Below the pieces are notes generated by a model that searched no databases, was not told the DNA's origin, and saw only the letters and a list, made by a program, of their open reading frames with translations. A program made the position numbers and the translations under genes. This document shows positions 11,953 to 49,336 of a stretch of 64,000 nucleotides of DNA, piece after piece (within the stretch, counting starts at the first letter, position 1; each line of letters opens with the position of its first letter). This DNA is from Methanogenium organophilum (lineage in GTDB: Archaea > Halobacteriota > Methanomicrobia > Methanomicrobiales > Methanomicrobiaceae): the NCBI RefSeq assembly GCF_026684035.1, contig NZ_CP113361.1, positions 1,240,001 to 1,304,000 on the forward strand, in the 5' to 3' direction.

Positions 11953-13212
11953 ATGTCTCTCAATGACCGCTCTATAGGTGCTGAGTTATCAGGTGTTGAG
12001 AGGGAACTTGCCTGCAATCCGCAATATGAGGATGTTGGTTTTGTGAAATATTACCGCAATGACCCGCGGTATTTCTATCTGCATCCATCCCCGTTTCTGA
12101 AGAGCGGATTCCCGGTGCTGTACTGTGCCGACCCGGACGTCATGCCACAGGGACCGCCCCCCGAACACCGGTTCGTGGAGGTGAGGGTCGTTGATGAAGT
12201 GAGAAAGCCACTGGATTCCCGTGGGGAGGAGTGGCTGACGATAAAAGACATCGGCGGATGGAAAGAGTTTGATGTCGCCCGTCTTGCCCGGCAGCGCAAG
12301 ATCATGGACTATCAGGAGGTGATTGAGTATTTCACCTACCCGTATGACGGCGAAGCGGAGAGCATCGAGGAGATAGCCGGCTGCTCGGCGCTCTTTTCCT
12401 TCTCTTCCCCGGCCGCTCACGATGAATCCGGCGGGATACGGTCGGCCGTCTTTGGGAAAAAATACCACTGGGACCTCTTCCGCCGCCCATTTGACCTAAT
12501 CCCGGCGGAATTTCGGCGGGTCAATTCCTATTACTATTACAAATTCTCACAAACCGAAGGATGGATGACAAAGACGGATGGGGAAGTCAACCTCGCCGTC
12601 CTCCGGCCCCAGCAGCTGGTCACGGATATTCCTGTTGCGATGGACAAAGAATCGGTGAAATCCCTCTCCGCCGAATTTCGTGGCATTCTCAAAGAGGAGT
12701 CCGCCATCGTCCGCGGCCAGTTAATCGACGGCCTTCTCATCACACCACAGTCCACGGATGCCATTGAAAAGGAGATGCAGGAGGCTGCCTATGCACTGCG
12801 CTCGGAGTACCTGACCGCCGGCCAGCGGCCCTTCCGCCAGAACATCTCGGGTGCCATCCCGCACCTCGCGGCGTCGTATGCCCGCCTGCAGTCGAACGAC
12901 ACCATCCACAAAGACGGCATCCGGTATGTGATGGACCTCTGGCTCACGATGATGAAGAAGACTGAACGGATTCAGTCCTCCCCCCTGAAGGTGAAAGACG
13001 CGTTCTCGCTCACGGGGGATGCCCGTGTGCTGTATTATCGCCTGTACGATGTATTTGGGGCCGACTCCCCGATTCCCTACAAAGAGGCCCTCCGGACCGC
13101 CCGCATGGACCCCGTGGACTTCCGGCTTTCCTGTGAATCGCTGGAAGAACGGGGCTATTGTCTCATGGGCACGAACGCCCTGACGCTTCTCGAACCGTAT
13201 GGGAAGGGGTGA
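11953..13212 (+). CDS. Uncharacterised protein with winged-helix-like C-terminus
   Basis: A 419-residue soluble protein that I do not recognise. The start is supported by GGGAG at 11938-11942, ten bases upstream. The N-terminal 230 residues are rich in aromatic residues (YYRNDPRYFYLHPSPFL, NSYYYYKFSQTEGW). The middle (about 235-330) is helical and contains ASYARLQSNDTIHKDGI. The last 80 residues (ARVLYYRLYDVFGADSPIPY to MGTNALTLL) look like a winged helix. This order of a helical segment with a terminal winged helix recalls the C-terminal part of MCM or ORC-type proteins, but no Walker motif is present. It stands alone, divergent from tyrS. Confidence 0.6.
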   Translation: MSLNDRSIGAELSGVERELACNPQYEDVGFVKYYRNDPRYFYLHPSPFLKSGFPVLYCADPDVMPQGPPPEHRFVEVRVVDEVRKPLDSRGEEWLTIKDIGGWKEFDVARLARQRKIMDYQEVIEYFTYPYDGEAESIEEIAGCSALFSFSSPAAHDESGGIRSAVFGKKYHWDLFRRPFDLIPAEFRRVNSYYYYKFSQTEGWMTKTDGEVNLAVLRPQQLVTDIPVAMDKESVKSLSAEFRGILKEESAIVRGQLIDGLLITPQSTDAIEKEMQEAAYALRSEYLTAGQRPFRQNISGAIPHLAASYARLQSNDTIHKDGIRYVMDLWLTMMKKTERIQSSPLKVKDAFSLTGDARVLYYRLYDVFGADSPIPYKEALRTARMDPVDFRLSCESLEERGYCLMGTNALTLLEPYGKG

Positions 13213-13588: not shown

Positions 13589-14383
13589 ATGCAAGAAAGG
13601 AATGGGGTGTCCTTTTGCATACCGTTGGGGGTGCTTTTCTTTGTCATGGTGCTCTGCGTGCCGGCGGCTGCCGTCATTGTGGAGCTCACGGAGGGGAATC
13701 TGACGGACACCCGGTATGAGGGGGATCTGGTTGAGTATACCATCGCCGTGAGCGGCGTCCCGAAACAGGCGCAGTATATCGAGATGAACACGGATGTAAC
13801 ACCCGTCCCGGACGTGCCGCTCTGGCAGCCGGAGAGAGACGGCGTGACGGTCACCGGCGGGGACGAAGCACTCAATGACCATACCATCACGCTCGAAACC
13901 GATGAAACAGGAGCGTTCACAGAGCCCGTCATGGTCACCGTCACCGGCAGGGCGCCGGTCCTGACCACGGTCACCGTGACAGACGGCGTGGTGGTCACGA
14001 AGCGCAATACCCAGACCACCGGGTATGTCTACTACCGCATCGAGGCCCGCGATGAGAACCGCGACCTCATCGGGAGCGGAACGACCAGGACGTTCTCTGT
14101 CCTCGTCCCGGACGAAGAGGCCTTCCGGGCCCGCCTGGACGCAGTCGGCGACCCGGAGCTGCGCTATCTTATAGACGATCTCTACTCGCGGGGGCTCCGC
14201 GACGAGGCGGGTGACCTGCTTGTCTATGCCGAGACTCCCGAAGAGCCTGTTGTCTCCGTCACGACGGCCGTTCTTCTGGGCGTGGTGCTGCTCATCGTCG
14301 GGTTTGCCGGCGGCATGGTCTTCGGGAAGATTCGTGCGAAAAACATCCAGGAATTTCAGAGAGAATATGGGGGGAATGAATAA
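13589..14383 (+). CDS. Membrane-anchored exoprotein, first gene of tubulin-like operon
   Basis: A 264-residue protein with a signal peptide (about 1-24), an extracytoplasmic beta-rich domain (VELTEGNLTDTRYEGDLVEYTIAVSG style) and one C-terminal membrane helix (about 230-252) followed by a short charged tail (GKIRAKNIQEFQREYG). A helical segment (EEAFRARLDAVGDPELRYLI) precedes the membrane helix. I do not recognise the domain family. Its stop is two bases before the tubulin-like gene, so the two are certainly cotranscribed. Its short cytoplasmic tail could dock on the tubulin-like protein; that is inference. Confidence 0.75.
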   Translation: MQERNGVSFCIPLGVLFFVMVLCVPAAAVIVELTEGNLTDTRYEGDLVEYTIAVSGVPKQAQYIEMNTDVTPVPDVPLWQPERDGVTVTGGDEALNDHTITLETDETGAFTEPVMVTVTGRAPVLTTVTVTDGVVVTKRNTQTTGYVYYRIEARDENRDLIGSGTTRTFSVLVPDEEAFRARLDAVGDPELRYLIDDLYSRGLRDEAGDLLVYAETPEEPVVSVTTAVLLGVVLLIVGFAGGMVFGKIRAKNIQEFQREYGGNE

Positions 14384-14385
14384 CA

Positions 14386-17300
14386 ATGGCCCATGATGAC
14401 ATCATCGAAGGGAAGGCCTTCCAGATGCCCGACGAACTGACCGTTGTCGCCATCGGGGGGTGCGGAAAGAAGCTCGTATCACATCTCTACGAGCATGAAT
14501 GGTTCTTTCGCCATTATCTGGCGGATGGAAAACGGCTCACGCTCTACACGATAGACACCGACTCGAACCAACGGGCGGACGACATCGCCCGCACCGAACG
14601 AGTGCGGGGAACGGTCGCCCGGCTGCAGCAGACACAGACCGGGATGGGGGGCACCGTGAAGTGCTCCCACTATCACCTGCCCGACCTCGCGAACGTCGAG
14701 CGGGTCTCTTCGCTTACCGCACAGGATATTGCCCGCCAGATCAAGACCCGGCGGGAGCGCCCGCTCGTGGACGTCTGGTGGATGAACGACCCCGATTACG
14801 GGTTCGACTACGCGATGCTCAAGAAAATCGACAAGAACATCGTCGACGACTTCGGCGGCGGGGTGCACCGTAGGCGTGCCATCTCGAAGGCGGTCTTCTA
14901 CAAGGCGATCACCCAGGGCGGCGAGCAGTTCCCGTCGTTCCAGGGCCACGGCCCCGTCGCCTTAATCATCGGCCTTGGGGGCGGGACCGGGTCGGGGATG
15001 TTCATCGATCTCGCCCGCTACATCAAAGAGAAACGCGGGCAGGAGTCAAAGATCTGGCTCTTTGTGGTCCTCCCCGCCGCAAGCGAGGGGGAAAAGGAGC
15101 AGCTCAACGCCGCCATTGCCCTCTCGGAGATTGAATACCTCAACATGAAGGACGACAAGCTCTTCAACTACATCATCGTCTCATCCCTCTCCCCGACGGG
15201 CTACGTGGACGGCGGGGACCGCAAGCAGGAGGTAGTCGAGTTCGACGCGGCGTTCCCGTATCTCTTCATCAACTCCTTTTACCTGCCGACAGCAGACATC
15301 TCCGCCATCGTCGATGCCAAGAAGGACTATTCCGGCTTCATCTTCGCCGATTCGCATGTAATAGAGTATCCGGTCGAGACACTCCGGTCCCTGAAGACGG
15401 GGTTCGATACCGTCATCGACCTCCTTGCGGAGAACGCACAGCACCGGACACGAATCCAGAAGGAGGTCTCCGACTTCCTCGCGACGAATGCCTCCCTCTA
15501 CCCGGAGGAGTTCGCCAAGGCGGACACAGAGATCACCCACGACGATGTGAACCTCTACCGCCGGGAGATCGAACGGATAAAAAAGGTCTGGGAGAACGAG
15601 ATCACCGACCTCCTCAACTTCCGGACGCAGTCCATCATCGAGTCCGCGGTCATAAACAACATGCCTGAAGAGCTCCGCGACATCACCGTCGTGAAGGACT
15701 TTGACGGTCTCGCGGAGTATGTCTCGCGCCTGCGGACGTCCCTTGAAAACGAGTCAAAACCGCATGAAAACGCAAAGGACCAGGAACTCTACGACGTCGT
15801 CAAGACCCATCTCCGGCTCCTCGAAGAACAGGCGGCTCTCCGGAAACAGACGCTCTCCGTAAGTGAGACGCCCGCACGGGTGGCCCTTGCCGCTGTCCTC
15901 CGCGGGGAAGAGAACTTCGGGAAAATAACGGGTGATATCACGGCCCGGCGTGCCACACTCAAGGCGGGCATCAGCGAGGCGGATACCCGGGTGCAGAAGA
16001 AGCGCACCGACCGCGATTCGATCACGGCAGATCAGACCACCATGCTCGACCGCATCCGTGCCGAGGTAAACGCCCTTGCAAAACCGGTCGATGACTATGT
16101 GTCCCTCGGGCAGGGCGGCGAAGCCGGGACGGAGACTGTCGAAGGGGCGGAACGGGCGTTTCTCGAGACCTTCTCGGCGCTCCTCCTTGCCATGCAGGAG
16201 AACCTGAACCGGGCGGAGAAGAAATCCCCCAAACCTGTCAAGCGCGATGCGTGGCTCGCATCGCTCCCGCTCAAAGACATTCGCAATGCTATCGACCGGC
16301 TGGAGACGGCGACGGGCAGCGACTTCTCGTACCTCTCCGACCTTGCCGAATCGGTCGCGCTCTATGACTACAACGAGTACATGCTCCGGGTCGCCAAGAA
16401 GCAGGGCATCGGCGACAGCATTCTCGGGCGTAAACTCGACGCCGGCATTTACCGCAGCGAGAAGGCGACAAAAGAGGAGCGTATCCGCAAAATTGCTCAG
16501 CTCCATCCCGGAAAGATCGCGATTCACGACCCCTTCGAGGTCACCGTGCAGGACCGGTTCCTGAGCCGCGAGATGGACACCCGTCTGCGCTCGCTGCGGG
16601 AGGCGACCATCGCCCCGCTCGTATCGGAGTTCAATCTTGATTCCGAAGAGAGGGCAAGGCTCATCGGTGCGTTTGCAGGCAGCGATACGGCGGCGATTCT
16701 CACGAGTGTCCGGGAAACCCTCACGGAGATCATCAACAGACGGGAAGGCTATCCCGCCAAGATCGCCGCTGTTACCGATGAAATCGATCAGCTCATCCTC
16801 TCACAGAAGCGGATGCAGCAGCAGGTCGAGTTCCTCCAGAAGACCGATGACCTCGTGAGCGCCACCTTCGATCCACGAAAGAAAGTCACGGCGGGAGTGG
16901 AGGCATACGAGGCAGGTCTGCGGGCCATCGATGAGCGGCGCCGGAGCGGTACCGCCACTGTCGAGGGGATGTACCGCACCTGGTTCGGGGAGATTAACCC
17001 GACCATTCTCTCCCTCCTGAAAGACGATTCAGACCTCTCGGTCCTTGACTACGACGATGACGGCCGCTCTGAGATCGAAAAGCTCTACCAGATTGTCCAG
17101 TGGAAATACAAGGAGCTCGTCGATGCCCACAAGCTCGGGCTCTCCAACATCTCCATCGGCTACGGCAGCGGCGGGACCGAGCGCTGGAGCTTCGACAAGG
17201 CGGCCCTCGTCGCCGCCTCGCCCTCGCGGTGGCTCTCGCAGCTCATCGACAACAAGGCAGGCGACTTCCGACGCACGCTCGTGAAGTCACTTGACTTAAA

Positions 17301-17640
17301 GGGCGTCGACAGCGCGAAGGTGAACGCTCACACCTACACCCGGCCCTGGGAGATATCGCTCACCTTCTATGCCGCAGCAGGATTCCTCGACAACATCTCG
17401 CCCCTGACCACCGGCGGGGGCTACTGGGAGAAGTACGTGAAAGCGCAGGACAACATCCTTCACCACGCCCTCTACCTGCACGAGGGGCGGTACGTGGTCC
17501 GGGACCACACGCTCCTTTTGACCGACGCGGCCGAGATCGCCGACCTCGAATCCGGCGACCGTGACCAGGTGGCGGCGGCAAAAGAACGGGTACTTGCGCT
17601 CTATAGCATCAGGGATATTAAAGAGGCCCTTGGGGAATGA
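14386..17640 (+). CDS. Tubulin/FtsZ-like GTPase with long coiled-coil extension
   Basis: A 1084-residue cytoplasmic protein whose first about 350 residues have the tubulin-superfamily pattern. The first glycine loop is IGGCGKK at 23-29, IDTDSNQ is at 56-62 (compare the INTD strand of FtsZ), and the signature GGGTGSG is at 198-204 followed by FIDLARYI. A FVVLPAASEGEKEQLNAA segment (227-244) matches the region after the signature in FtsZ. The rest is largely charged heptad-like helix (about 370-1000) with a globular end. Size and signature fit the divergent tubulin-like (Tubulin_2) family, not FtsZ or CetZ. A T7 catalytic loop is not obvious. It overlaps the GTPase gene by four bases. Confidence 0.85.
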   Translation: MAHDDIIEGKAFQMPDELTVVAIGGCGKKLVSHLYEHEWFFRHYLADGKRLTLYTIDTDSNQRADDIARTERVRGTVARLQQTQTGMGGTVKCSHYHLPDLANVERVSSLTAQDIARQIKTRRERPLVDVWWMNDPDYGFDYAMLKKIDKNIVDDFGGGVHRRRAISKAVFYKAITQGGEQFPSFQGHGPVALIIGLGGGTGSGMFIDLARYIKEKRGQESKIWLFVVLPAASEGEKEQLNAAIALSEIEYLNMKDDKLFNYIIVSSLSPTGYVDGGDRKQEVVEFDAAFPYLFINSFYLPTADISAIVDAKKDYSGFIFADSHVIEYPVETLRSLKTGFDTVIDLLAENAQHRTRIQKEVSDFLATNASLYPEEFAKADTEITHDDVNLYRREIERIKKVWENEITDLLNFRTQSIIESAVINNMPEELRDITVVKDFDGLAEYVSRLRTSLENESKPHENAKDQELYDVVKTHLRLLEEQAALRKQTLSVSETPARVALAAVLRGEENFGKITGDITARRATLKAGISEADTRVQKKRTDRDSITADQTTMLDRIRAEVNALAKPVDDYVSLGQGGEAGTETVEGAERAFLETFSALLLAMQENLNRAEKKSPKPVKRDAWLASLPLKDIRNAIDRLETATGSDFSYLSDLAESVALYDYNEYMLRVAKKQGIGDSILGRKLDAGIYRSEKATKEERIRKIAQLHPGKIAIHDPFEVTVQDRFLSREMDTRLRSLREATIAPLVSEFNLDSEERARLIGAFAGSDTAAILTSVRETLTEIINRREGYPAKIAAVTDEIDQLILSQKRMQQQVEFLQKTDDLVSATFDPRKKVTAGVEAYEAGLRAIDERRRSGTATVEGMYRTWFGEINPTILSLLKDDSDLSVLDYDDDGRSEIEKLYQIVQWKYKELVDAHKLGLSNISIGYGSGGTERWSFDKAALVAASPSRWLSQLIDNKAGDFRRTLVKSLDLKGVDSAKVNAHTYTRPWEISLTFYAAAGFLDNISPLTTGGGYWEKYVKAQDNILHHALYLHEGRYVVRDHTLLLTDAAEIADLESGDRDQVAAAKERVLALYSIRDIKEALGE

Positions 17641-19202
17641 TCATCAACACGCAGCGGCGGCGGACCTACCTCCTCGTGGCCCTTCCCATCAGCCTGCTCG
17701 TTGCCTGGGTCTTCACCGCGGTCGCCCCGGTCTTCAAGATTCACCCACCCTCTTTTGCCCTCACGGTGGCTGTCGAGTTCCTCTGCGGGCTCTTTCTGGC
17801 GGTTGCCGTGGGGATGATCTTCAACGAGGATTCCCGGATAAATGGCATTGTCTATGCGGGCATCTTCGCAGCACTGCCGGTCTTCTACGTGATGACGTCC
17901 CCGTGGGCGAACGTGGATCTCCTCACCCTCACCTACACGGCGGGCATCGTCTGCGGTGGGGCGTTCGTCATCCGGGTGGTCACGACCAACCGCTACGACC
18001 ACCTGGCCCGTGGCGCAAAGGGCCTTTTCACCATCTTCTTCGCCCTCATCATCGGGTTTCTCGCGTACGAGATGTACATCTCCGCCTTCACCCCGGATGC
18101 GACGGTGAGCGAGGCGTATGCGGCGCAGTACATCTTCTTTTTCGGGACGGGAATCGTGCTCTCGGTGGTCCTGTACTGGCTTACCATCCGGATCACCGTC
18201 GGGGTGCGGGCCTCGGAGATATTCATCTTCGGCCCCCGGTCGTCGGGGAAGACCTACTTCGTCCTCGGCCTCTGGAGCTACATTTCCCAGCACTTCGAGA
18301 AGGGCCACTCGAACGAAGGGGTGGTTCTCTCGGGAGACCCAACGGACACGGGCGACGACCTGCGGATATCGAATATGTACGCGAAGATCCTCGATGGCAA
18401 GATCCTCTCGCGCACCTACCGGTACCAGATGGTGATGTACCAGCTGACGGGAATGAAGTACGGCATTATCCCGGTCAAGTGGACGGTGGTGGACTATGCC
18501 GGCGAATACTACGACGAACTGAACGAGGAGACCTTCCGCCGGGCGGTTGCCCTCATCGGCGAATGGACCGGCATCCCAACAGCAGACATCCGGCGTCGTG
18601 CGGGAACGATTGAGTTCGTCCGGTTCATCCGGGAGACCTATCCGGAGGCGCTCACCGACCCCGCCTTCACGAGGAGTGTCATCATCACGACGATGTACGG
18701 CAACTTCCTCCGGGCGGGCAAGGTGATCTTCCTCATCGACGGCGAGAAGGTAACGGACGACCGGAAGGGGCATGCCCAGCTTGCGCGGGAGTTCGGGGGC
18801 TACATGAAGACCCTTATCGACCTCGAAGGGGGGCGTTATCTGGGCCTCTTCCGGCCGAACAAGAAGTTCGCGCTCGTCGTCACGAAAGCGGATCTCGTCT
18901 GCTGGAAGAACCGGGAGATCCGCAATCTGCTCCGTACCATGAACGTGGCCAAACTCTCCGAAGTCCCGGAGACCTCAAAGGAGGCCCTGACCATCGAGAC
19001 ACGGCTCTACGAGATCCTCGGCACGAACCAGGTCTTCCGGAACCTTGTCAATATGATGAACGACATCTCGATGTACTTCGTGGCGGTATCGGTCGATGCA
19101 ACGGCGGAACCCTTCCCCACGGAGGAGGGGTTCGAGGAGGAGATCTGGCCGGCGTCGCTTGCGCCGTGGCGGTTTACGGAGATATTCCGGTTCGGCCTGT
19201 AG
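17637..19202 (+). CDS. Polytopic membrane protein with cytoplasmic GTPase domain
   Basis: A 521-residue protein. Six hydrophobic helices (about 11-31, 42-62, 71-87, 97-115, 129-147, 163-183) precede a P-loop GTPase. Its motifs are GPRSSGKT at 199-206, the switch II-like DYAGEYYD at 286-293, and TKAD at 416-419 as the base-specifying motif. VIFLIDGEKV (363-372) is a core strand. The domain belongs with TRAFAC-class GTPases of unknown role. It overlaps the tubulin-like gene as ATGA, a strong sign of stoichiometric partnership. A distinct GTPase next to an FtsZ/tubulin-like gene is a known predicted membrane-remodelling pairing. Membrane fusion of the GTPase is notable. Confidence 0.85.
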   Translation: MIINTQRRRTYLLVALPISLLVAWVFTAVAPVFKIHPPSFALTVAVEFLCGLFLAVAVGMIFNEDSRINGIVYAGIFAALPVFYVMTSPWANVDLLTLTYTAGIVCGGAFVIRVVTTNRYDHLARGAKGLFTIFFALIIGFLAYEMYISAFTPDATVSEAYAAQYIFFFGTGIVLSVVLYWLTIRITVGVRASEIFIFGPRSSGKTYFVLGLWSYISQHFEKGHSNEGVVLSGDPTDTGDDLRISNMYAKILDGKILSRTYRYQMVMYQLTGMKYGIIPVKWTVVDYAGEYYDELNEETFRRAVALIGEWTGIPTADIRRRAGTIEFVRFIRETYPEALTDPAFTRSVIITTMYGNFLRAGKVIFLIDGEKVTDDRKGHAQLAREFGGYMKTLIDLEGGRYLGLFRPNKKFALVVTKADLVCWKNREIRNLLRTMNVAKLSEVPETSKEALTIETRLYEILGTNQVFRNLVNMMNDISMYFVAVSVDATAEPFPTEEGFEEEIWPASLAPWRFTEIFRFGL

Positions 19203-19223
19203 GCCGCCGGAGGGGGGAGAGAA

Positions 19224-20633
19224 ATGCACGACGCATACGGTATATTTACACCGGACGGCGAAGCACTGGGAGGAACCCTTACAGACGAGTACGCCCTCCG
19301 GCTCGCTGAACGGCTCGACGAAAGTTCGGCGTCGCTTTATATCAGCACGAAACACGGCGTCCTTCTGATGGGCACCGCGGTGAACGTCCAGAAACAGGGG
19401 CGGCGGCCCGACACGGTGATTTATCTCGAACGGACCGTCTGGGAGGGCGGGCCGGTGCCGGCGGTCGATCGCTCGGCCGTACATGCCTTCTTTGAACGCG
19501 TCGAACGGCGTCTCGCGGCGATGGAGTACGCCCTGCGGGACGTGGGCCCGGAGATCGGGGCGGGGGCAGGCCTGGTGGGGGCCCGCACGACCGACTATGC
19601 CCTCGGGCGGCTCCTTCTGGGGCGGCCCGTCGTCTGTACCGCAGGCATCCCCTCCCGGTCGTATGCCTTCTTTTTCGCGGTTCTGAACGCACTGCAGCCC
19701 CTTCTCTCCACCGGATTCACTTTTGTCATCGCGAAACGTATCGTCCCCGATATCGACCTCGTGGTGGCGGAGACTGCCGCCGGGCGGGTGCAGGTAGACC
19801 TTGCCACGGAAACGGTGACGAACGATGCCTGGGAGGAGATGTACCGCGACATCGGGCGCTTCTCCCGCAACCCGGTTCTCCGGCAGATTCTCGCAGGGGC
19901 GTCGTCCCACCCCGCCCTCACGGGAAGCCTCCTTGCCGAGTACACCCATGCAAACCGCGTTCCCCCGGGCGGAAAGAACCGTTTTGCGGCATTTCTTGCA
20001 GAAGAGGGCATTCCCCGTGCCCCGAAACCACCGGAGGGAGGCACCCCCGGCATCGCCCGGCCGCCCGAAGAACGACCGGCCCGACCGGATGAGGCCGATT
20101 ATGCGAAACCGCCTCCCCGGCCGGCGGCAGACCGGCTGGAGCAGGAGTATGCGGTGCATATGGAACAAAAGCGGACGGCCCGGCGGCGCCTTGCAATCGG
20201 GGTGGGGGTGGTGCTTGTTCTTATGGTGGCCATCCTTGTGCTTTTTCTCGTTTCGCCGGGACTCCTTCCTCTGCCCCTGAATGGCACCCCCGCTCCGCAC
20301 ATCACCCCGTCGGCGCCGATCACGCCGGAGCAGGCGACTGTTCTCATAACGCGGCTGAACACGACGCCGGGGAATATCCCCGCAGACCTGCAGGGGGTGG
20401 GGAGTGCGTACGATATCACGGTCGCGGCGCCGCAGAACGTGACGCTGGAGCTGACAGCAGACATCTCAACGGAGCGATTCTACAGCCTGATGCGCTACAA
20501 CGCATCCGGGGCAATCTGGGAGCCGGTCGAAACCCCGCTCGTCGTCACGAACAAAACGGTTGTTGCATCTATCCCCACGTCGGGCATCTATCGCGTCTTC
20601 ACCAACCGGACCCCCCCGCAGCCGCAGGGGTAG
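19224..20633 (+). CDS. Bitopic membrane protein of tubulin-like operon
   Basis: A 469-residue protein of unknown family. Residues 1-250 form a soluble, presumably cytoplasmic domain starting MHDAYGIFTPDGEALGG. A Pro-rich linker (about 264-305) and one membrane helix (about 322-344, after the basic KRTARRR) follow. The last 120 residues would be outside, with Pro/Thr-rich stretches, several NxT sites and a beta-rich end. The N-terminal domain may be the cytosolic partner of the adjacent GTPase (for example a regulator), but no motif proves this. It begins 21 bases after the GTPase stop behind a GGAGGGGGGA site. Confidence 0.75.
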   Translation: MHDAYGIFTPDGEALGGTLTDEYALRLAERLDESSASLYISTKHGVLLMGTAVNVQKQGRRPDTVIYLERTVWEGGPVPAVDRSAVHAFFERVERRLAAMEYALRDVGPEIGAGAGLVGARTTDYALGRLLLGRPVVCTAGIPSRSYAFFFAVLNALQPLLSTGFTFVIAKRIVPDIDLVVAETAAGRVQVDLATETVTNDAWEEMYRDIGRFSRNPVLRQILAGASSHPALTGSLLAEYTHANRVPPGGKNRFAAFLAEEGIPRAPKPPEGGTPGIARPPEERPARPDEADYAKPPPRPAADRLEQEYAVHMEQKRTARRRLAIGVGVVLVLMVAILVLFLVSPGLLPLPLNGTPAPHITPSAPITPEQATVLITRLNTTPGNIPADLQGVGSAYDITVAAPQNVTLELTADISTERFYSLMRYNASGAIWEPVETPLVVTNKTVVASIPTSGIYRVFTNRTPPQPQG

Positions 20634-20679
20634 CGGTGGGGACAGCGGTCCGGACGGGAGAACAGGGGAGGTGTCTTGC

Positions 20680-22323
20680 ATGAAATCGGATCCTGCGCCA
20701 CTCTGTGTTCTTGTGATAATTATCTGCCTTACGCTCCTTGTGACCGTCTATCCGGCGGCGGCGCAGGTCCGGGGGACGATTGCGGTCTCATCCGAACCGG
20801 AGGGGGCGTCCATCTTCCTGAACGACGAAGACCTCGGTCTGCAGACGAACACGTTCATCGAGGATGTCTTCCCCGGCATTCACTACATCCGGCTGGAACT
20901 GCCGGGCTACCGTACGTGGGAGACATTCTTCGAGGTGGACGAGGGGAAAGTAACCTACATCAGCCACGAGATGGAGCCGATCGTCGGTGGCCCCTTCTCG
21001 GTGGCGACGACACCGCCGGGTGCAGCGGTCTATATCGACGGCACGTTCATGGGGACCTCCGATACCGTTCTCTATGATCTCCCGGCAGGACAGCACCGTA
21101 TCCTGCTCACCCTCGACGGCTACGCTGACTATGCAGCGACGATCACCATCCCGGAGGATATGGCTCAGTCGCTCGTCCATACATTTGAACCACCTTCATC
21201 GACGGGACGGATCACCGTCTCATCCGCCCCAACGAATGCCGCCATATATTTGGGCGGCGTGTACCAGGGTACCACCCCGCTGACGCTCGACGAGGTACAG
21301 CCGGGGACCTATCCAATCGTTCTGACCCGGACAGGGTACGAGAACTGGACGGGCAGCGTGGAAGTGGCGGCTGGCCGGATATCCGAAATATCTGCTGTCC
21401 TCGTACGGTCCCCGGTCCTCCTCGCGGTTGCAAGCATCCCCCCCGGTGCGGAGGTCTTTGTTGACGGCACCCTTCGCGGCACCACCCCGCTCTCCATCTC
21501 CATCGAACAGGGCATGCACACCGTCAGAATCGAGAAATTCGGCTATGAACCGCAGGAAGAGACGGTTGACGCCGGTCCCGACGGCGTATCTGTCTCCGTC
21601 CCGCTCGTCTCGACGGTGCCGCAGGCGCTTGACGCTGCTGAAGAGGCAATCCGGCAAAACGAGGCGTATGGCCCGGACAGGGCCGTGGCCGCCATCAAAT
21701 CCGCATATCTCCAATACGAGGTGGGCGACGCGGAAGGGGCGGTCCGGTATGCGGCAGACGCAGTCGCCCTCGCAGAAGACGTGGACCGGGACGGTGTCAC
21801 CAATGCCCGTGACATCAGTCCCCGCCTGCACAACGCCGTGATCTATGTGTTGCCGGTGTTGCTCTGCATCCTCGCAGCGGCCCTCTTCGTCCGTGATGTT
21901 GCTCTCCACCGGGTGCTCCCCGTTCTGGGCGTCGACCTGCCCGCGACCGTCAGGGAGGATGATATGCTTGCCCGGGCCGGGATCACAGCGGACGCCGCCG
22001 GCGGGCCGTACCGGGGATTCGTCTGCACCGTTACAATAGACGGGGCCACGGTGGAGCACTTCACGATCCCGGGGCGGTACCGGGTGATGCTCGGCGGCCG
22101 GGGGCGGGGCGTTCACCGGCTCCGGGTGCACCTGCAGGTGGTGCAGGAGCGCTACGGAACGGTGGAGCGTTCAGAGGAATGGTCATTCATCGTCGAACCG
22201 GCGGAGCGGGCGGCTGGCGGCGGGGGAGAGATCATCGATGCGGAAGAGCCCGTGGGGGATCTGGCAGCTCTCTATGAGGAGGAACGCGATGATGGCGGGA
22301 CCAAAGCCGAAGCAGGGACGTAG
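20680..22323 (+). CDS. PEGA-repeat membrane protein, last gene of tubulin-like operon
   Basis: A 547-residue protein. A GGGGAGG at 20665-20671 lies 8 bases before this ATG; an open frame from 20560 overlaps the previous gene and is rejected as start. After a signal helix (about 8-29) come four PEGA domains (about 31-98, 101-170, 172-240 and 241-310), each with a VSSEPEGASIFLND-like or SIPPGAEVFVDGTLRGTTPL-like core. Then follow a helical region, a DVDRDGVTNARD calcium-loop-like motif near 367, a membrane helix (about 387-410) and a 135-residue beta-rich tail. PEGA domains are thought to bind surface layers or glycans, so this protein could anchor the complex to the cell wall. Confidence 0.88.
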   Translation: MKSDPAPLCVLVIIICLTLLVTVYPAAAQVRGTIAVSSEPEGASIFLNDEDLGLQTNTFIEDVFPGIHYIRLELPGYRTWETFFEVDEGKVTYISHEMEPIVGGPFSVATTPPGAAVYIDGTFMGTSDTVLYDLPAGQHRILLTLDGYADYAATITIPEDMAQSLVHTFEPPSSTGRITVSSAPTNAAIYLGGVYQGTTPLTLDEVQPGTYPIVLTRTGYENWTGSVEVAAGRISEISAVLVRSPVLLAVASIPPGAEVFVDGTLRGTTPLSISIEQGMHTVRIEKFGYEPQEETVDAGPDGVSVSVPLVSTVPQALDAAEEAIRQNEAYGPDRAVAAIKSAYLQYEVGDAEGAVRYAADAVALAEDVDRDGVTNARDISPRLHNAVIYVLPVLLCILAAALFVRDVALHRVLPVLGVDLPATVREDDMLARAGITADAAGGPYRGFVCTVTIDGATVEHFTIPGRYRVMLGGRGRGVHRLRVHLQVVQERYGTVERSEEWSFIVEPAERAAGGGGEIIDAEEPVGDLAALYEEERDDGGTKAEAGT

Positions 22324-32623: not shown

Positions 32624-34558
32624 ATGCTTTCAGGACTCAGGCGCCGTATCCCTGCGGGGATTGCAGAAACACTCTTTTTCATTGGCCCCGGCCTGATCCT
32701 CGCGATTGAAGCGTCCGGTGAGAGCGGTATTACAGAACTCCTTGCAGCAGGGCTTGAGTATGGTTTTTCTCTCTTCTGGGTCATTGGAGCAGCACTGATA
32801 TTCAAGTTTGCATTTACAAACGGTATTGCCCGCTATACGGTTGCAACCGGGACCTCTATCTTTGACGGGTTGCGCACCATTCCCGGACCAAAGAACTGGG
32901 AGGTAACGTTTATTTCGATCATTTACTTCTTTGAAATGGTGGGGTTCGGCGGTGTCGCTCTCTTTGCAGGTAGCATGCTTGCAGAAGTCGTCCCGGCAGC
33001 GGTGCCTGCGGCATATGCGTTTGCCCTCCTAATTTTTACACTCCTTGTGCTCTGGAAGGATTCCTATGAACGTCTCGAGCATGTGGTCATTCTCCTCTCG
33101 GTTGTGATGTTTGCAGGTCTTGCAGTCATTATCTTTGCACTGCCATTTCCTCTGGCACAAATTGCGCAGGGCTGTGTGCCTTCTGTTCCGGATGGCGCCC
33201 TCATCGAGACGATGGCCCTCCTCGGTGTCGTGGGGTCCGGCCTGAATATTCTCCTCTACTCGGTGTGGCTGCATGAGAAGGTGGGGGACCGGCACGGTGA
33301 GAAGTACTTCTCCTCTCATATGAAGAGTGTAAATATTGACCTAGTCCTCGCGTTCCTGCTGGTTGGGGTTGTTGCCCTAATCTTTATGACTCTTGGGTTC
33401 TGGGGGTTTGTGGCGGAGCATTTGACCGGCGCCAGTGCGGCGGCAGTAACAGAGAGTCTTCATGCATCGCTCGATAAGGTGCCCGGCGGACTGCATACCA
33501 TCCTTTTTGTAGCAGTTGTCATCCTCGCCGGGGCGCTCATATCGGGTATGGACGGGCGTGCGAGGGCGGTCTCTTCGGTGGTCTCACGTGTGTCTCCCAC
33601 TCGTTTTGAAGAGCGGACACTCTACCGTATGGTGCTTCTAATCTTTGCGGGCATCATCACGCTGGGTATTCTATCGGGTGAGACCACGTCACTTATCCGG
33701 ACGGTTGCCGCCGTCTCGTCGGTGATGTTTGGCCTTCTCGGGTTCATGCTCATCTATCTTGATCGTCGTCTTCCTGCCTATGCGAGGGGTTCACCTCTCT
33801 GGCTCTTAACAGTCGGGTGCGGGAGTGTACTCTTTCTTGCGATAGCCCTCATGACCGAACAGTCCCTCGTCACCTTCGGTCTGCCACTGATGGAGCGGGT
33901 GGCGGTTGTCGTAATCCTCCTCTATGCTTTCACCAAGACGGGTCTCTTTGAACGTCTTGTCACCGGCAGGGGGACGCTGGAAGACCGGGGTTGGATGATT
34001 CTCACCTTTGGCGTTCTTTCACTTTACGGAATCTACCGTGGGATTCTCTATAACGGGGTCATCGTTGATTTCGCTGACCTCGGGCCAATGGTGGCAGGCA
34101 TTCTGGGGGGGCCGGTTGTCGGTGGGTGTGTCGGCCTCATTGCTGCAGCATTCCGTCTGACAGAAGGGGGTATCGGTGCGATCGGCAGTGCTGTATCCGC
34201 CGTCTTTTCCGGTATAATTGCCGCATACGCCGCCCGGATGTTTCGGAATCATCTCACCTACTGGCGGCTGATTCTTCTGGCCATTGGGATTGAATTTCTG
34301 CATGTATTCGTTCTCATCCCGCTCTTTTCCGGTGGATGGGATTCTCTTGCGATGTGGCATATCATCCGCGAGACTTATCTTCCGATGGCTGCTGCAAATG
34401 CCCTTGGGCTGGTTCTCTTCCTTTCCATTCTCCGCGAACGTGGTTACGAGATGATGGAGCATACAGAATACCTCTCGCTGAAGCGGCGGGGAGGAAGAAG
34501 AGAAGAGGAGGTTTTGTCTGACGGTGCTGGTGGTGACAGTCCGGTGGATGAAACCTGA
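32624..34558 (+). CDS. Nramp-like transporter fused to LytS-type 5TM domain
   Basis: A 644-residue polytopic membrane protein. Residues 1-420 resemble the Nramp fold (GPGLILAIEASGESGITELLAAGLEYG in helix 1), but the canonical DPGN metal motif reads EASGESG, and the helix 6 MPHN-type motif is absent (VVGSGLNILLYSVW). Residues about 455-620 match the 5TM-5TMR_LYT receptor module (ADLGPMVAGILGGPVVGGCVG, FRLTEGGIGAIGSAVSAVFSG). Transport of divalent metal is therefore doubtful. It may be a transporter-sensor in which the LytS-like part binds a ligand. It stands alone behind an A/T-rich region and has a charged, probably cytoplasmic tail. Confidence 0.75.
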   Translation: MLSGLRRRIPAGIAETLFFIGPGLILAIEASGESGITELLAAGLEYGFSLFWVIGAALIFKFAFTNGIARYTVATGTSIFDGLRTIPGPKNWEVTFISIIYFFEMVGFGGVALFAGSMLAEVVPAAVPAAYAFALLIFTLLVLWKDSYERLEHVVILLSVVMFAGLAVIIFALPFPLAQIAQGCVPSVPDGALIETMALLGVVGSGLNILLYSVWLHEKVGDRHGEKYFSSHMKSVNIDLVLAFLLVGVVALIFMTLGFWGFVAEHLTGASAAAVTESLHASLDKVPGGLHTILFVAVVILAGALISGMDGRARAVSSVVSRVSPTRFEERTLYRMVLLIFAGIITLGILSGETTSLIRTVAAVSSVMFGLLGFMLIYLDRRLPAYARGSPLWLLTVGCGSVLFLAIALMTEQSLVTFGLPLMERVAVVVILLYAFTKTGLFERLVTGRGTLEDRGWMILTFGVLSLYGIYRGILYNGVIVDFADLGPMVAGILGGPVVGGCVGLIAAAFRLTEGGIGAIGSAVSAVFSGIIAAYAARMFRNHLTYWRLILLAIGIEFLHVFVLIPLFSGGWDSLAMWHIIRETYLPMAAANALGLVLFLSILRERGYEMMEHTEYLSLKRRGGRREEEVLSDGAGGDSPVDET

Positions 34559-44523: not shown

Positions 44524-44605
44524 TTTTTTTATGGAGTATTGGAATAATGGTAACTTATATGAGTGTACTTCGAAAGGAGTCCTCCTAAGACAGAGGTGGA
44601 ATTGG

Positions 44606-47600
44606 ATGACAAGGATGCGGACCGGCAGGCTCGTGGTACTCGTGGCACTCTGTGCCGTGGTGTGCCTCGCAGCACCGGCAATGGCCGCCACATGGGTGGT
44701 GAATCCCGACGGAACGGGCGATTTCACGACCGTGCAGGCGGCACTGGACAGTGACTGGACAAGTGGTGACACGATAGAGATCGCCTACGCAGTGTATAAA
44801 GAACCGGTCGCGGTGGACGCGGCCGGCCGGGAACTCACGATTATGGGCATCCCCTCGCCGGCGGGTGACCTGCCGGTCATCGACGGCATGGGCGGCACGA
44901 TCGAGCTGCCGCCCCTTGATCCCGACGGCTGGTATGGGTGTGGGGAGTGTTCGATGTTTCTCTACAACGGTGATTTCGCCGTATCGTCTATTTGTGTGAC
45001 GAACGCTTCGCATAACGGCCTTGTTGCACGGGCCGGTGTCTCCGGACGGACGGTCGCCCTCACGGATGTCGTGGCGACAGAGAACGGCTGGCACGGCATC
45101 AATATCATCTACTATGACGAGGCCGTGCTGACCGAAGTTGATGCAATCGAGAACGGGTGGGCCGGCATTCATGTGGTCAGTACCACATTCACCGAAGGAA
45201 CGGAGCTTCTCTGTCAGGATAACGGCGATGACGGACTGCAGATCCGCGGCGGTGAGGCCGTGCTCACGTCTGTCCTTGCCACCGGGAACGGGTATCGTGG
45301 AGTCGACGTTATCCTGGAAGACTTGTGGGTCATACCCGTGGATGGGGAGGAATGCTCCTCTGCTCTTCTCACGGATATTGTTGCCACGGGCAATGCACGA
45401 GACGGCCTCTTCGTCAAGGGGTCCGGGACCTCCGTTGCGGAGATATCCGAGGTGGAGTCGACCGGAAACGGTGATGACGGTGTCGTCCTGAACGGCTTTG
45501 CCGACTTCGCGGTCTCCGACGTGACGACCGGCGGAAACGGGGCGGAGATAGATATCCCTGTCGTCCCCCCCATTGTGGGCAGCGATGACGGTCTGTCCCG
45601 TGCCTGTGCCCTCTGCCGGGATGACGACCTCCTGTTCACTGCAGATGCTGATCTGGCAGCGGGTGCAGACAGCATCGTTCATGACCTTCGCCATGCGGGG
45701 AACGGTCTTTTTGTGGTGCAGAGCATAAACGGCACCATTGAGAGCGTGGACGCGACAGACAACATGGGCGCGGGTATCCTGACGGATACCACCGGCGATG
45801 TGGTCATCACCGACTGCAGTGCGGATGCAAACGAGTATCTCGGGATTCTCACCATCTCGGTATCCGACGACTATCCCGTTCTCTCGGGTCTGGTCTCGGA
45901 TATCGGTCTTGAGAGTGACACCGATGCGATGGCAGATGCACTCGATACGGCATTCACTGAAATGACGGCGTCTGTGGCAAACGCCACGGTCGTCTCCGAA
46001 GATGAATTCATTCTCGGGGAGGGCGTCGTTGTCTTTGTCGAAAATGTCACGGAAAACGGCCCGAATGTGATGTTGTCATCCGTTTCGGCGAATGATAACG
46101 GGTATACCGGCATCGGGGTCATTGCCCCGTACGTTGTTGCATCGGATATTGCCGCAGGTGAAAACGGCGTGTGCCCGACCGACGTTGCAGGCACGCTCAG
46201 CGGTGCCGGTATTGTCGGTGCATCCTTCGTCGGCGAATACTCCGGGGTTGATGCAGCGGACAACGGTGGTGCCGGTATGGCTGCCGCCTCTCTTGTCCTG
46301 GCGATTGAGAATGCGACACTCACCGGAAACGGTGCCGAAGCCTACAGCGACATTCACGGTCCGCTCTTCCAGACCGGGCTTCTCTCCGTTTCGCTCGTAA
46401 ACGAATTCCTCGGTGTTCATTCGGATCAGAATGCCGGTTCCGGTATTCTCATGACGTCTGTGATGACGGGATGTTACGAATGTACGGCATCAGGGAATGA
46501 CTATGGCGGTATCGTTGCCATGGACCCCCTGAGTCTGGGTATTGCTGCACTCCTGGTGCACTCCGACCTGTCCGTTGTTCTGGATTCCGCGGGCATCTCT
46601 GAAGAGGACCGATTCTATCTGGAGAGTCTCTCATCGCCTGCCATGCAGGATGTCATGACCTGCTACGGTGAGACCGATGCCTTTGCTGCGTCCGCCACAG
46701 CAGACATTGAAACGGACGACGTCACGGAAGAGGATGTGGCGGTCCTCATTGAACTGATACACCAGTATATGGCCCTGTCCGGGTGCTATATGATGGAATC
46801 CGGTGCGGATGAGAACGGGCTCTTTGGCATGGCCGTGGTATATCCGAATGTTGCGGCATACGGGTTTTCGGCAGATGGCAACGGGTATGACGGCGGCAGC
46901 ACGCTTGAGGCCCTTCTCGGGACAGGTATTTTTGGTCTGTATCTCACCGGTGATTTCTTTGATATTTCGGTATCGGAGAATTCCGGAGCAGGGATGGTCA
47001 CTGTTGGTGTCGTATCTGAGTATGAGAAAGTCACGGCAGACGACAACGGATACGCGGGTATCGTCACCATCGACCCCGTGACCCTTGCTGCTGCGGTGCT
47101 CGGCTACTTCGTGGTGCTGGACGGCGACGGGCTCCCCATTGCGTTGGCGGCTGACGACACGGCCGACCTTGCGATGCACGCGGATATCACGGAGAGTGCT
47201 GTTGCGCAGGAGATCGTTGCCACCTACTACACCGGAGCTCCTGCCGGAGAGGTGACCATCAATAAGGCCACCCTGCTGACGGAGGACCCGATGGAAATTC
47301 TTCTTGAGCATATCGAGTTCTACTTCGAATACGCTGGTGTCTATGCCGAAGATGTCTCCGCATCCGGCAACGGCTATCCGGGATTCGTCGCAATCGGCCC
47401 GAACGTGGTGATGAACGGCGTCATAGCGGATGACAACGGTGCTGCAAACGATGACGAAAGCGATATCATCGGCCTTGCCGCAGGCAGCGGTGTCATCGGT
47501 CTCTCCATTGTGGGCGAATACATCGATATCGCGGCATCCGGCAACACCGGCGCCGGTATTGCCACGGCGGGTGTCCTTACCGATATGGCCGCCTGTGAGG

Positions 47601-49336
47601 CAGACGGGAACGGCGTGGGCGTCGTCTCCCTCTTTGTTACCAGTCACCACACGGAGATCGGTGCGGATGAAAACAGTATCTCCGGTATCGTCCTTGCGGG
47701 TATCAACGGCACACTCACGGATGCCGCCGCGGACCAGAACGCTGGACCGGGTATTGTCTGTGTCGACCCGGTGGCAGCGGTCCTCATGTACTTCAGCTTC
47801 TCCCCGGATGTTCTTCCGTCTGCGACGGCGGATGACGCGACCGTCCCCTCCCCGGAGACGATGGCACTCGTCTGTCAGCTCACCGGTGACGCAGATGCGG
47901 CATCTGCCGGGTCGGATGACCGGGAGACGGCATGGGATCTCATCGTGTGGGCAATGGAGTATATCTCCTCGTATGAGGGCGACATCACCGACCTGAATGA
48001 GACGGAAATCATGGACCTCATTCTCACCCATTACCTGATGGGTGCGGAACTGTCGGTCTCCGGCGTCTCGACGGACGATAACGGCTGGCAGGGCATCGTT
48101 GTGCTCTCCCCGTCCATCGTTGTCGAAGATGTCTCCGCATCCGGCAACGGGTATCACGGAATTGCGCTGATCAGCCCGTGGAAGGCGGTCGACGCGAGCG
48201 GCTTCGTGCACCCGGCAGAACCCGTCGGAGCCGAACGTCTGAGTGTTCGGGGAGTTTATTCCGTGGGTAACGGCGGCGCAGGTCTCTCTGTCGCCGGAGC
48301 AAACGAAGGAGATGTGATGAATATCTACGGCTCCGAAAACCTCGTGGGCTTACTCCTTGGTGATTCTGATAATCTCATGGTTTCGGATGGTACCTGGGAA
48401 GCAAACTGGGCTGCTTCGGTCGTGTGCGGCGGCAGTCGGGTCAATAATCTCATTCCGACTGGTGAATTCCTGCCGGACGGGGCACTCACTGACCCGACCG
48501 GTTCCTGCGACAACGTCTTTGCCTGCACCTATGTGGACGGGGGGATAGTTGTCCTTTCGAACTCCATCGGGAATACATTTGATGAGACATTCTTTGACGA
48601 AGCGCAGGATATTTCAGCAGATATCTCCGGAAACGGTCCTTATGTGCTCTACAGCACGTGCGGTTCCTGGGCCCCGCCGCTGCCCTCTCCAGAACCATGG
48701 GTTCATCTGGGCGGATGTGGCATCGGTGTCGTCGGCGTGGGCGGATGTAACACGACCGTGAACATCACGTATGACTACAACCACGGGTTCCCTGAGGGGA
48801 CCGGAAAAACCCTGTATCCCCAGTGGGCACCCAATTCCACGACATCATGGGATTTATGGCGGTTCAATCCGGTCGTGAATGACCCGGTCACGATGACCAT
48901 CGGACCCATGGAGGTGCCGGTGACCTGCCCTGCGGATGTTGCGGATGGTGAATTCTTCGACGTGATGTTCATTGCCCCCTTCTGGGCGGAAGAGCGAAGC
49001 AACGATAATCCGGGGTATTATATTTTCATGCAGTCGCTCTCTCACAATGCGACCGAGTTCACCGGTCCCGGCACGGTCCCGTCTGTGACGCCGGAAGCAA
49101 TCCCTAAGGCTCCGGTGACGGGTCCGCTCGATGGATCGGATGATGGTTCCGACAGTCCGGGAGCGAATCCGCAGTCCGGTGCCGACAGCGATTTCCCCTC
49201 CTCCGCGTCGTCCCCGGCTGGTGTGACGGCCACGGCGACCACCACCCCGGTGCCCACCACGACGCCAGCAGGAATTATACCGGTTGCAGGAGCAATCGGT
49301 ATTCTTAGTGCCGTCGCGGTGCTCCGCCGCCGGTAA
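44606..49336 (+). CDS. Giant beta-helix surface protein with C-terminal sorting tail
   Basis: A 1576-residue acidic exported protein. An AGAGGTGG site 5' of this ATG makes it preferable to the in-frame start at 44531. After a signal peptide (about 1-30, ending AMAATW) comes a right-handed parallel beta-helix built of short turns ending in NG (SGNGYPGFVAIGPN, DDNGYAGIVTIDP, DENGLFGMAVVYP). A larger repeat of about 190-240 residues recurs at least four times. The C-terminus has a Ser/Thr/Pro-rich stalk, then TPAGIIPVAGAIGIL and a final RRR. That resembles archaeosortase-processed CTERM tails (a PGF-CTERM-like variant). It is probably an S-layer or adhesion protein. Confidence 0.85.
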   Translation: MTRMRTGRLVVLVALCAVVCLAAPAMAATWVVNPDGTGDFTTVQAALDSDWTSGDTIEIAYAVYKEPVAVDAAGRELTIMGIPSPAGDLPVIDGMGGTIELPPLDPDGWYGCGECSMFLYNGDFAVSSICVTNASHNGLVARAGVSGRTVALTDVVATENGWHGINIIYYDEAVLTEVDAIENGWAGIHVVSTTFTEGTELLCQDNGDDGLQIRGGEAVLTSVLATGNGYRGVDVILEDLWVIPVDGEECSSALLTDIVATGNARDGLFVKGSGTSVAEISEVESTGNGDDGVVLNGFADFAVSDVTTGGNGAEIDIPVVPPIVGSDDGLSRACALCRDDDLLFTADADLAAGADSIVHDLRHAGNGLFVVQSINGTIESVDATDNMGAGILTDTTGDVVITDCSADANEYLGILTISVSDDYPVLSGLVSDIGLESDTDAMADALDTAFTEMTASVANATVVSEDEFILGEGVVVFVENVTENGPNVMLSSVSANDNGYTGIGVIAPYVVASDIAAGENGVCPTDVAGTLSGAGIVGASFVGEYSGVDAADNGGAGMAAASLVLAIENATLTGNGAEAYSDIHGPLFQTGLLSVSLVNEFLGVHSDQNAGSGILMTSVMTGCYECTASGNDYGGIVAMDPLSLGIAALLVHSDLSVVLDSAGISEEDRFYLESLSSPAMQDVMTCYGETDAFAASATADIETDDVTEEDVAVLIELIHQYMALSGCYMMESGADENGLFGMAVVYPNVAAYGFSADGNGYDGGSTLEALLGTGIFGLYLTGDFFDISVSENSGAGMVTVGVVSEYEKVTADDNGYAGIVTIDPVTLAAAVLGYFVVLDGDGLPIALAADDTADLAMHADITESAVAQEIVATYYTGAPAGEVTINKATLLTEDPMEILLEHIEFYFEYAGVYAEDVSASGNGYPGFVAIGPNVVMNGVIADDNGAANDDESDIIGLAAGSGVIGLSIVGEYIDIAASGNTGAGIATAGVLTDMAACEADGNGVGVVSLFVTSHHTEIGADENSISGIVLAGINGTLTDAAADQNAGPGIVCVDPVAAVLMYFSFSPDVLPSATADDATVPSPETMALVCQLTGDADAASAGSDDRETAWDLIVWAMEYISSYEGDITDLNETEIMDLILTHYLMGAELSVSGVSTDDNGWQGIVVLSPSIVVEDVSASGNGYHGIALISPWKAVDASGFVHPAEPVGAERLSVRGVYSVGNGGAGLSVAGANEGDVMNIYGSENLVGLLLGDSDNLMVSDGTWEANWAASVVCGGSRVNNLIPTGEFLPDGALTDPTGSCDNVFACTYVDGGIVVLSNSIGNTFDETFFDEAQDISADISGNGPYVLYSTCGSWAPPLPSPEPWVHLGGCGIGVVGVGGCNTTVNITYDYNHGFPEGTGKTLYPQWAPNSTTSWDLWRFNPVVNDPVTMTIGPMEVPVTCPADVADGEFFDVMFIAPFWAEERSNDNPGYYIFMQSLSHNATEFTGPGTVPSVTPEAIPKAPVTGPLDGSDDGSDSPGANPQSGADSDFPSSASSPAGVTATATTTPVPTTTPAGIIPVAGAIGILSAVAVLRRR

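Follow-up and report, generated by a model that had tools for sequence, protein, structure and literature searches.

The window, the whole stretch of 64,000 nucleotides analysed here, spans positions 1,240,001–1,304,000 of the 2.65 Mb Methanogenium genome (order Methanomicrobiales). Five tightly spaced ORFs, named A to E, occupy positions 13589–22323 of its forward strand and are separated by 2, -4, 21 and 46 bases in the ORF list, all of them as laid out in an earlier note made on this DNA. They code for a protein with a beta-rich outer domain (A, 264 aa, 13589..14383), a tubulin relative (B, 1084 aa, 14386..17640), a membrane GTPase (C, 521 aa, 17637..19202), a bitopic protein (D, 469 aa, 19224..20633) and a PEGA-domain protein (E, 547 aa, 20680..22323). 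Note that the 46-base spacing between D and E presumes that ATG 20680, found just 3' of GGAGGTG, is the start of E, whose longest ORF begins at TTG 20560 within D.

The neighbouring genes look like ordinary housekeeping functions. Upstream are found a RIO kinase gene, which is on the opposite strand and outside the operon, a class I tRNA synthetase gene and a gene for a 419-aa protein, while a GAPDH-type dehydrogenase is coded downstream. The tRNA synthetase, 419-aa and dehydrogenase genes recur as flanks in the same genus only. The 419-aa gene (11953–13212, forward strand), directly upstream of A and without known family, likewise adjoins A–E only there. Elsewhere in the window the forward strand codes, at 32624–34558, for an unusual fusion of an NRAMP-like transporter with a 5TMR-LYT sensor domain, located beside a histidine kinase gene, and, at 44531–49336, for a 1601-aa protein whose sole match is a right-handed beta-helix and which is probably a large surface protein.

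Protein B and other tubulin relatives of the host

Profile searches reveal similarity of B to Tubulin_2 (PF13809; E 8.9e-12, 45.4 bits for a cut-off of 27) and to Tubulin (PF00091; E 6.5e-9, 36.8 bits for a cut-off of 33). Its score of 14.9 bits against the FtsZ equivalog TIGR00065, whose cut-off is 295.2, indicates that it is not a canonical FtsZ. The protein features an amino-terminal tubulin-type GTP domain, a long helical/coiled-coil middle and a conserved carboxyl-terminal domain. The GGCGKK start, the GTP loop GGGTGSG, the GVHRRRA motif and a carboxyl-terminal stretch from W988 to R1039 are kept across diverse archaea. The GGGTGSG nucleotide loop (T4), which the earlier note had placed correctly at residues 198–204 (14977..14997, forward strand), shows little or no variation among 14 homologues from diverse archaea, and alignment of B to FtsZ/CetZ by hhalign (E 5.7e-9) runs over 187–250. 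By its sequence, B corresponds to FtsZl1 of Makarova and Koonin 2010.

The AlphaFold2 model of B, built from a ten-row alignment, is of low confidence (pLDDT 67, pTM 0.41). Its amino-terminal strands and helices run in tubulin order, long helices extend over residues 330–869 and the carboxyl-terminal part is largely helical at pLDDT <50. Tubulin/FtsZ structures make up most of the best matches of this model in the PDB, the top one being CetZ2 (4b45; E 1.1e-3, probability 1.0). No match goes past E 0.001 and the fold evidence alone is consequently supportive, not strong. The tubulin fold, for which the earlier note had proposed a structure prediction, is not contradicted by this low-confidence model, and the assignment of B to the tubulin superfamily made there can be considered secure once the sequence evidence (PF13809/PF00091 and hhalign) joins the PDB matches of the model. 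The T6-H7-T7 elements, which support FtsZ filaments, could not be identified with confidence in the hhalign alignment of B, an outcome shared by the 2010 authors for FtsZl1 (PMC2875224). Helix 281–297 could be H7 in the model, its adjoining segment 301–329 being at pLDDT <50. The FAD stretch at ~319–321, FtsZ-like by eye, was considered for the T7 catalytic Asp and rejected for lack of alignment support. A PADLOC match of B to the CARF_HEPN model (E 3e-4) was also dropped as a coiled-coil artefact, because it falls in the helical middle of the protein.

The host genome additionally encodes two FtsZ, one CetZ-like protein (405 aa) and one FtsZ-like protein of 761 aa, the FtsZ and CetZ labels being assigned by size and score. 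The presence of two FtsZ and of the CetZ-like gene elsewhere in the genome makes a role of B in division unlikely. The 761-aa protein (frame at G000:C1:613863-614351; L102, ORF from 1498) is divergent; it contains repeats, PNDSALMGKK among them, along with a long acidic tail. Its gene adjoins a mer-like gene, and akin frames of 600–920 aa are present in nearly all sampled relatives. It is possibly the Methanoculleus 'CetZ' coded near mer/mtd that was reported as shaking-induced (PMC12008871). The operon of that 'CetZ' was rejected as a counterpart of the B system, since it probably codes for a different tubulin relative.

Membrane GTPase C and the surface-facing proteins A, D and E

The orientation of the A–E proteins was deduced from signal-like amino termini and from where the positive residues lie, these marking the cytoplasmic side. 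In C, about six membrane helices precede a cytoplasmic P-loop GTPase domain, as judged from the hydropathy of C and 25 homologues. The GTPase motifs are intact and kept in the C alignment: the G1/P-loop GPRSSGKT (18231..18254), the G3 motif DYAGE (18492..18506) and the G4 motif TKAD (18882..18893), all on the forward strand. The six-helix P-loop GTPase of the earlier note thus holds for its GTPase motifs, while six helices rise above the hydropathy threshold in many orthologues and five in the window protein. DO-GTPase2 (PF19993) is matched weakly by 12 of 14 members of the C family (best E 1.2e-4), the window protein reaching 16 bits for a cut-off of 27, and C appears distantly similar to the DO-GTPase2 and double-GTPase proteins. 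The haloarchaeal C is still recognizable by profile comparison (E 2e-22).

Protein A has a signal-like amino-terminal helix (residues 13–31), a beta-rich outer domain to which no Pfam family could be matched, one carboxyl-terminal membrane helix (221–239) and a short basic cytoplasmic tail. This tail was considered as a conserved docking site and rejected, as it is kept within the nearest family only. The conservation profile and the model of D, the latter built from a nine-row alignment, delimit a conserved amino-terminal cytoplasmic alpha/beta domain, one membrane helix (residues 325–343, positions 20196–20252, forward strand) and a variable outer beta domain. Hydropathy detects one main helix in nearly all D homologues. 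The best PDB matches of the D model have E 0.06 or worse and none is meaningful, with a weak beta-sandwich likeness only. The possibility that D is a GAP1 protein was discarded, the D homologues scanned having no match to this family. A bitopic gene of haloarchaea agrees with D in position and topology, D not being recognizable there by profile comparison (hhalign probability 27). Protein E is composed of a signal-like helix, four PEGA domains (PF08308, E 4.3e-62), one membrane helix at ~386–404 and a carboxyl-terminal domain that ends in a variable acidic tail. The bitopic nature of D and the four PEGA domains of E are as the earlier note had read them, and the surface-facing parts that it suggested are borne out by the outer domains of A, D and E predicted from their helices.

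Conservation and inheritance of the gene cluster

The full set A-B-C-D-E is found, complete and in this order but with differing flanks, at 18 loci from four archaeal families. This is the conservation across Methanomicrobiales that the earlier note had put forward for verification. The recurrence of the same order of homologues in many genomes with different flanks indicates that it did not arise by chance. Pairwise distances of the A–E proteins correlate over the 18 loci (r 0.85–0.99), a correlation that owes partly to shared genome descent and that is also followed by divergent loci of other families. Such co-conservation shows functional linkage of A–E, not physical contact.

A true long B homologue was identified in 33 of the 199 genomes of the order, a count from which were left out the matches over ~57 residues to canonical FtsZ/CetZ that represent most tubulin matches in the order. 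In the family to which the window belongs, 19 of 28 genomes are carriers (6/7, 2/2, 1/1, 6/6, 3/3 and 1/2 by genus, and 0 in three further genera). The B gene is chromosomal and single copy, and its presence is steady by genus. The B system was not found in the viral contigs searched and a mobile or viral origin of the operon was discarded on this basis. Genes of PF01917 tend to be more numerous in carrier than in non-carrier genera, in the window's family only. A link to archaellins or pilins was dropped because the trend does not hold for the order as a whole and descent is a confounding factor.

The inner parts of the system (B, C and the amino-terminal domain of D) change slowly while the outer parts change fast. 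Conservation of whole proteins is highest for B and C (~76% within the genus) and lowest for D (45–50%). A homologue of A is found immediately upstream of B at 26 order-level loci and at 11 of 11 loci in Methanosarcinales. In these 11 loci A and C invariably flank B, D comes next in 10 and the PEGA gene is absent. In haloarchaea and some uncultured archaea, a C that is detectable or positional usually follows B, and the bitopic gene is often next. The PEGA gene is restricted to part of the Methanomicrobiales. From these comparisons A-B-C-D is considered the archaeal core and PEGA a lineage-specific addition; of the five-gene PEGA system described in the earlier note, the four-gene core is retained and PEGA as a core part is not. 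The B tree features two main Methanomicrobiales/Methanosarcinales types, and its topology points to probable transfers of B into families f3 and f4.

Some loci depart from this organization. Genome G027 codes for a second, very divergent FtsZl1 (L049:14071-17361; ~29% identity, very long branch) right downstream of its A–E cluster, possibly a partner subunit. Genes for vWA-domain and Hsp70 proteins are located near B-C at the haloarchaeal plasmid loci L003 and L004, as in bacterial systems and unlike in the window. At L003 the protein in the C position has degenerate-looking GTPase motifs.

Proposed function and relation to described systems

The organization above is compatible with a system in which B, a GTP-binding scaffold of the tubulin superfamily with a long coiled coil, probably self-assembles at the cytoplasmic face of the membrane. 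C would hold B at the membrane and would probably switch its assembly or pass its state across the membrane. The conserved cytoplasmic domain of D would serve to anchor or read B/C, and D would extend outside, where the outer part, touching the S-layer or other surface polymers, would be made up of A, joined in this lineage by the PEGA protein E. Assembled in this way, possibly as one complex, A–E would link the cell surface to a cytoskeletal element in the cytoplasm and organize the envelope or surface structures, for example pili. The slow change of B and C together with the fast change of the outer parts is in keeping with an inner machine and a variable surface opposite it. Evidence for a role in surface organization also comes from the Synechocystis Tubulin_2 protein sll0445, whose mutant is impaired in phototaxis and which co-fractionates or is in complexes with pilus proteins, a parallel to be read with the altered photosystem II fluorescence of the same mutant (PMC9880817). 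Taken together, the chances are about even that A–E organize the envelope or surface structures by means of a tubulin scaffold in the cytoplasm that is regulated by GTP, tethered to the membrane and linked to surface proteins. More tentatively, the A-B-C-D core may be an ancient cytoskeletal machine of archaea that spans the envelope: a tubulin relative without a role in division, controlled by a membrane GTPase of its own, would shape or move the envelope via surface proteins, with PEGA as a lineage-specific outer module.

The proteins associated with B are all membrane proteins, which would also suit a tubulin polymer and GTPase that bend the membrane directly. Such remodelling or vesicle budding, predicted from the gene context of FtsZl1 (PMC2875224), is nevertheless rather unlikely: the outer domains would be superfluous for pure bending from inside, no vesicle data were found for the FtsZl1 family, and the vesicles of Haloferax need a different small GTPase, their yield being unchanged in CetZ knockouts (PMC10927574). 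The distant DO-GTPase2 likeness of C brings in a second reading, a defence or programmed-death role like that of double-GTPase/GAP1 systems with tubulins, where C would sense a threshold and B assemble as the effector. The neighbourhoods of double-GTPases and tubulins were predicted as conflict systems by Kaur et al. 2020 (PMC7159879), and two haloarchaeal plasmids have vWA and Hsp70 genes in the vicinity of the homologue. That published role is, however, itself a prediction, the operon has no GAP1, vWA, Hsp70 or effector gene and no convincing PADLOC match, and its presence is stable by genus, among housekeeping flanks and with none found in viral contigs; a defence role for A–E is accordingly less likely. 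A transport or secretion apparatus, with C forming or gating a membrane complex on a cytoplasmic scaffold of B, is very doubtful in spite of the ~six helices of C and of the transport or signalling role that a reviewer of the 2010 paper suggested from gene context (PMC2875224), as profile searches link none of A–E to a known family of transporters or secretion proteins and the cluster has no conserved cargo gene. Envelope and surface organization is favoured over membrane remodelling, conflict and transport; the roles in cell shape, surface anchoring or vesicle formation that the earlier note had suggested are candidate ones. What is at stake is whether prokaryotes employ tubulin relatives for a further purpose besides division and shape, one exerted on the surface from across the membrane. 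Methanosarcina includes genetically tractable species, and the presence of the core genes in this genus makes their function testable. A Tubulin_2 match is present in the laboratory strain Methanosarcina acetivorans.

When compared with the DO-GTPase/GAP1 systems (PMC7159879), the cluster has in common a GTPase beside a tubulin-coiled-coil protein, membrane-associated parts and the weak DO-GTPase2 match of C. It differs by its stable chromosomal distribution and by the lack of vWA, Hsp70, FNIII and GAP1, the latter having no match in A–E. The Synechocystis cluster sll0445-sll0447 shares the Tubulin_2 protein but is a different cluster, whose partners are described as FtsA-like and DivIC-like proteins and not as a membrane GTPase (PMC9880817). 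The sll0445 mutant provides the sole functional data found for a Tubulin_2 relative; the literature searched yielded no experiment or functional study on archaeal FtsZl1 members or clusters and no mechanistic study of FtsZl1/Tubulin_2. Borg proteins with tandem repeats include Tubulin_2 and PEGA proteins, as separate entries. CetZ proteins, archaeal members of the tubulin superfamily tied to shape and surface, include in CetZ2 the best structural match of B. They have ~400 aa and no coiled coil, unlike B, and the separate 405-aa gene of the host is of that size class.

The closest system is that of FtsZl1. Its association in operons with a divergent GTPase, one that in archaea is bound up with the membrane, was published in 2010 together with the membrane-remodelling hypothesis (PMC2875224). 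The tubulin-like family beside a distinct GTPase, with a predicted role in membrane remodelling, to which the earlier note had referred matches this work, and the machine can therefore not be called undescribed, as had been proposed there. Both systems have a PF13809-matching protein with the GGGTGSG loop, a coiled-coil middle and a helical carboxyl-terminal domain, an adjoining divergent, membrane-associated GTPase and a canonical FtsZ coded in the same genome. Most FtsZl1 operons hold a vWA-domain protein, and several genomes an OmpA-like protein or a protein kinase (PMC2875224). None of these is coded in A–E, nor is vWA found in the flanking genes scanned, and A, D and the PEGA protein are present instead. 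Genes A and D may correspond to the associated families A1 and A2 that are marked in a figure of that paper. The analysis adds to that description the absence of vWA/OmpA partners, a defined A-B-C-D core, a lineage-specific PEGA protein and a distant link of C to the double-GTPases.
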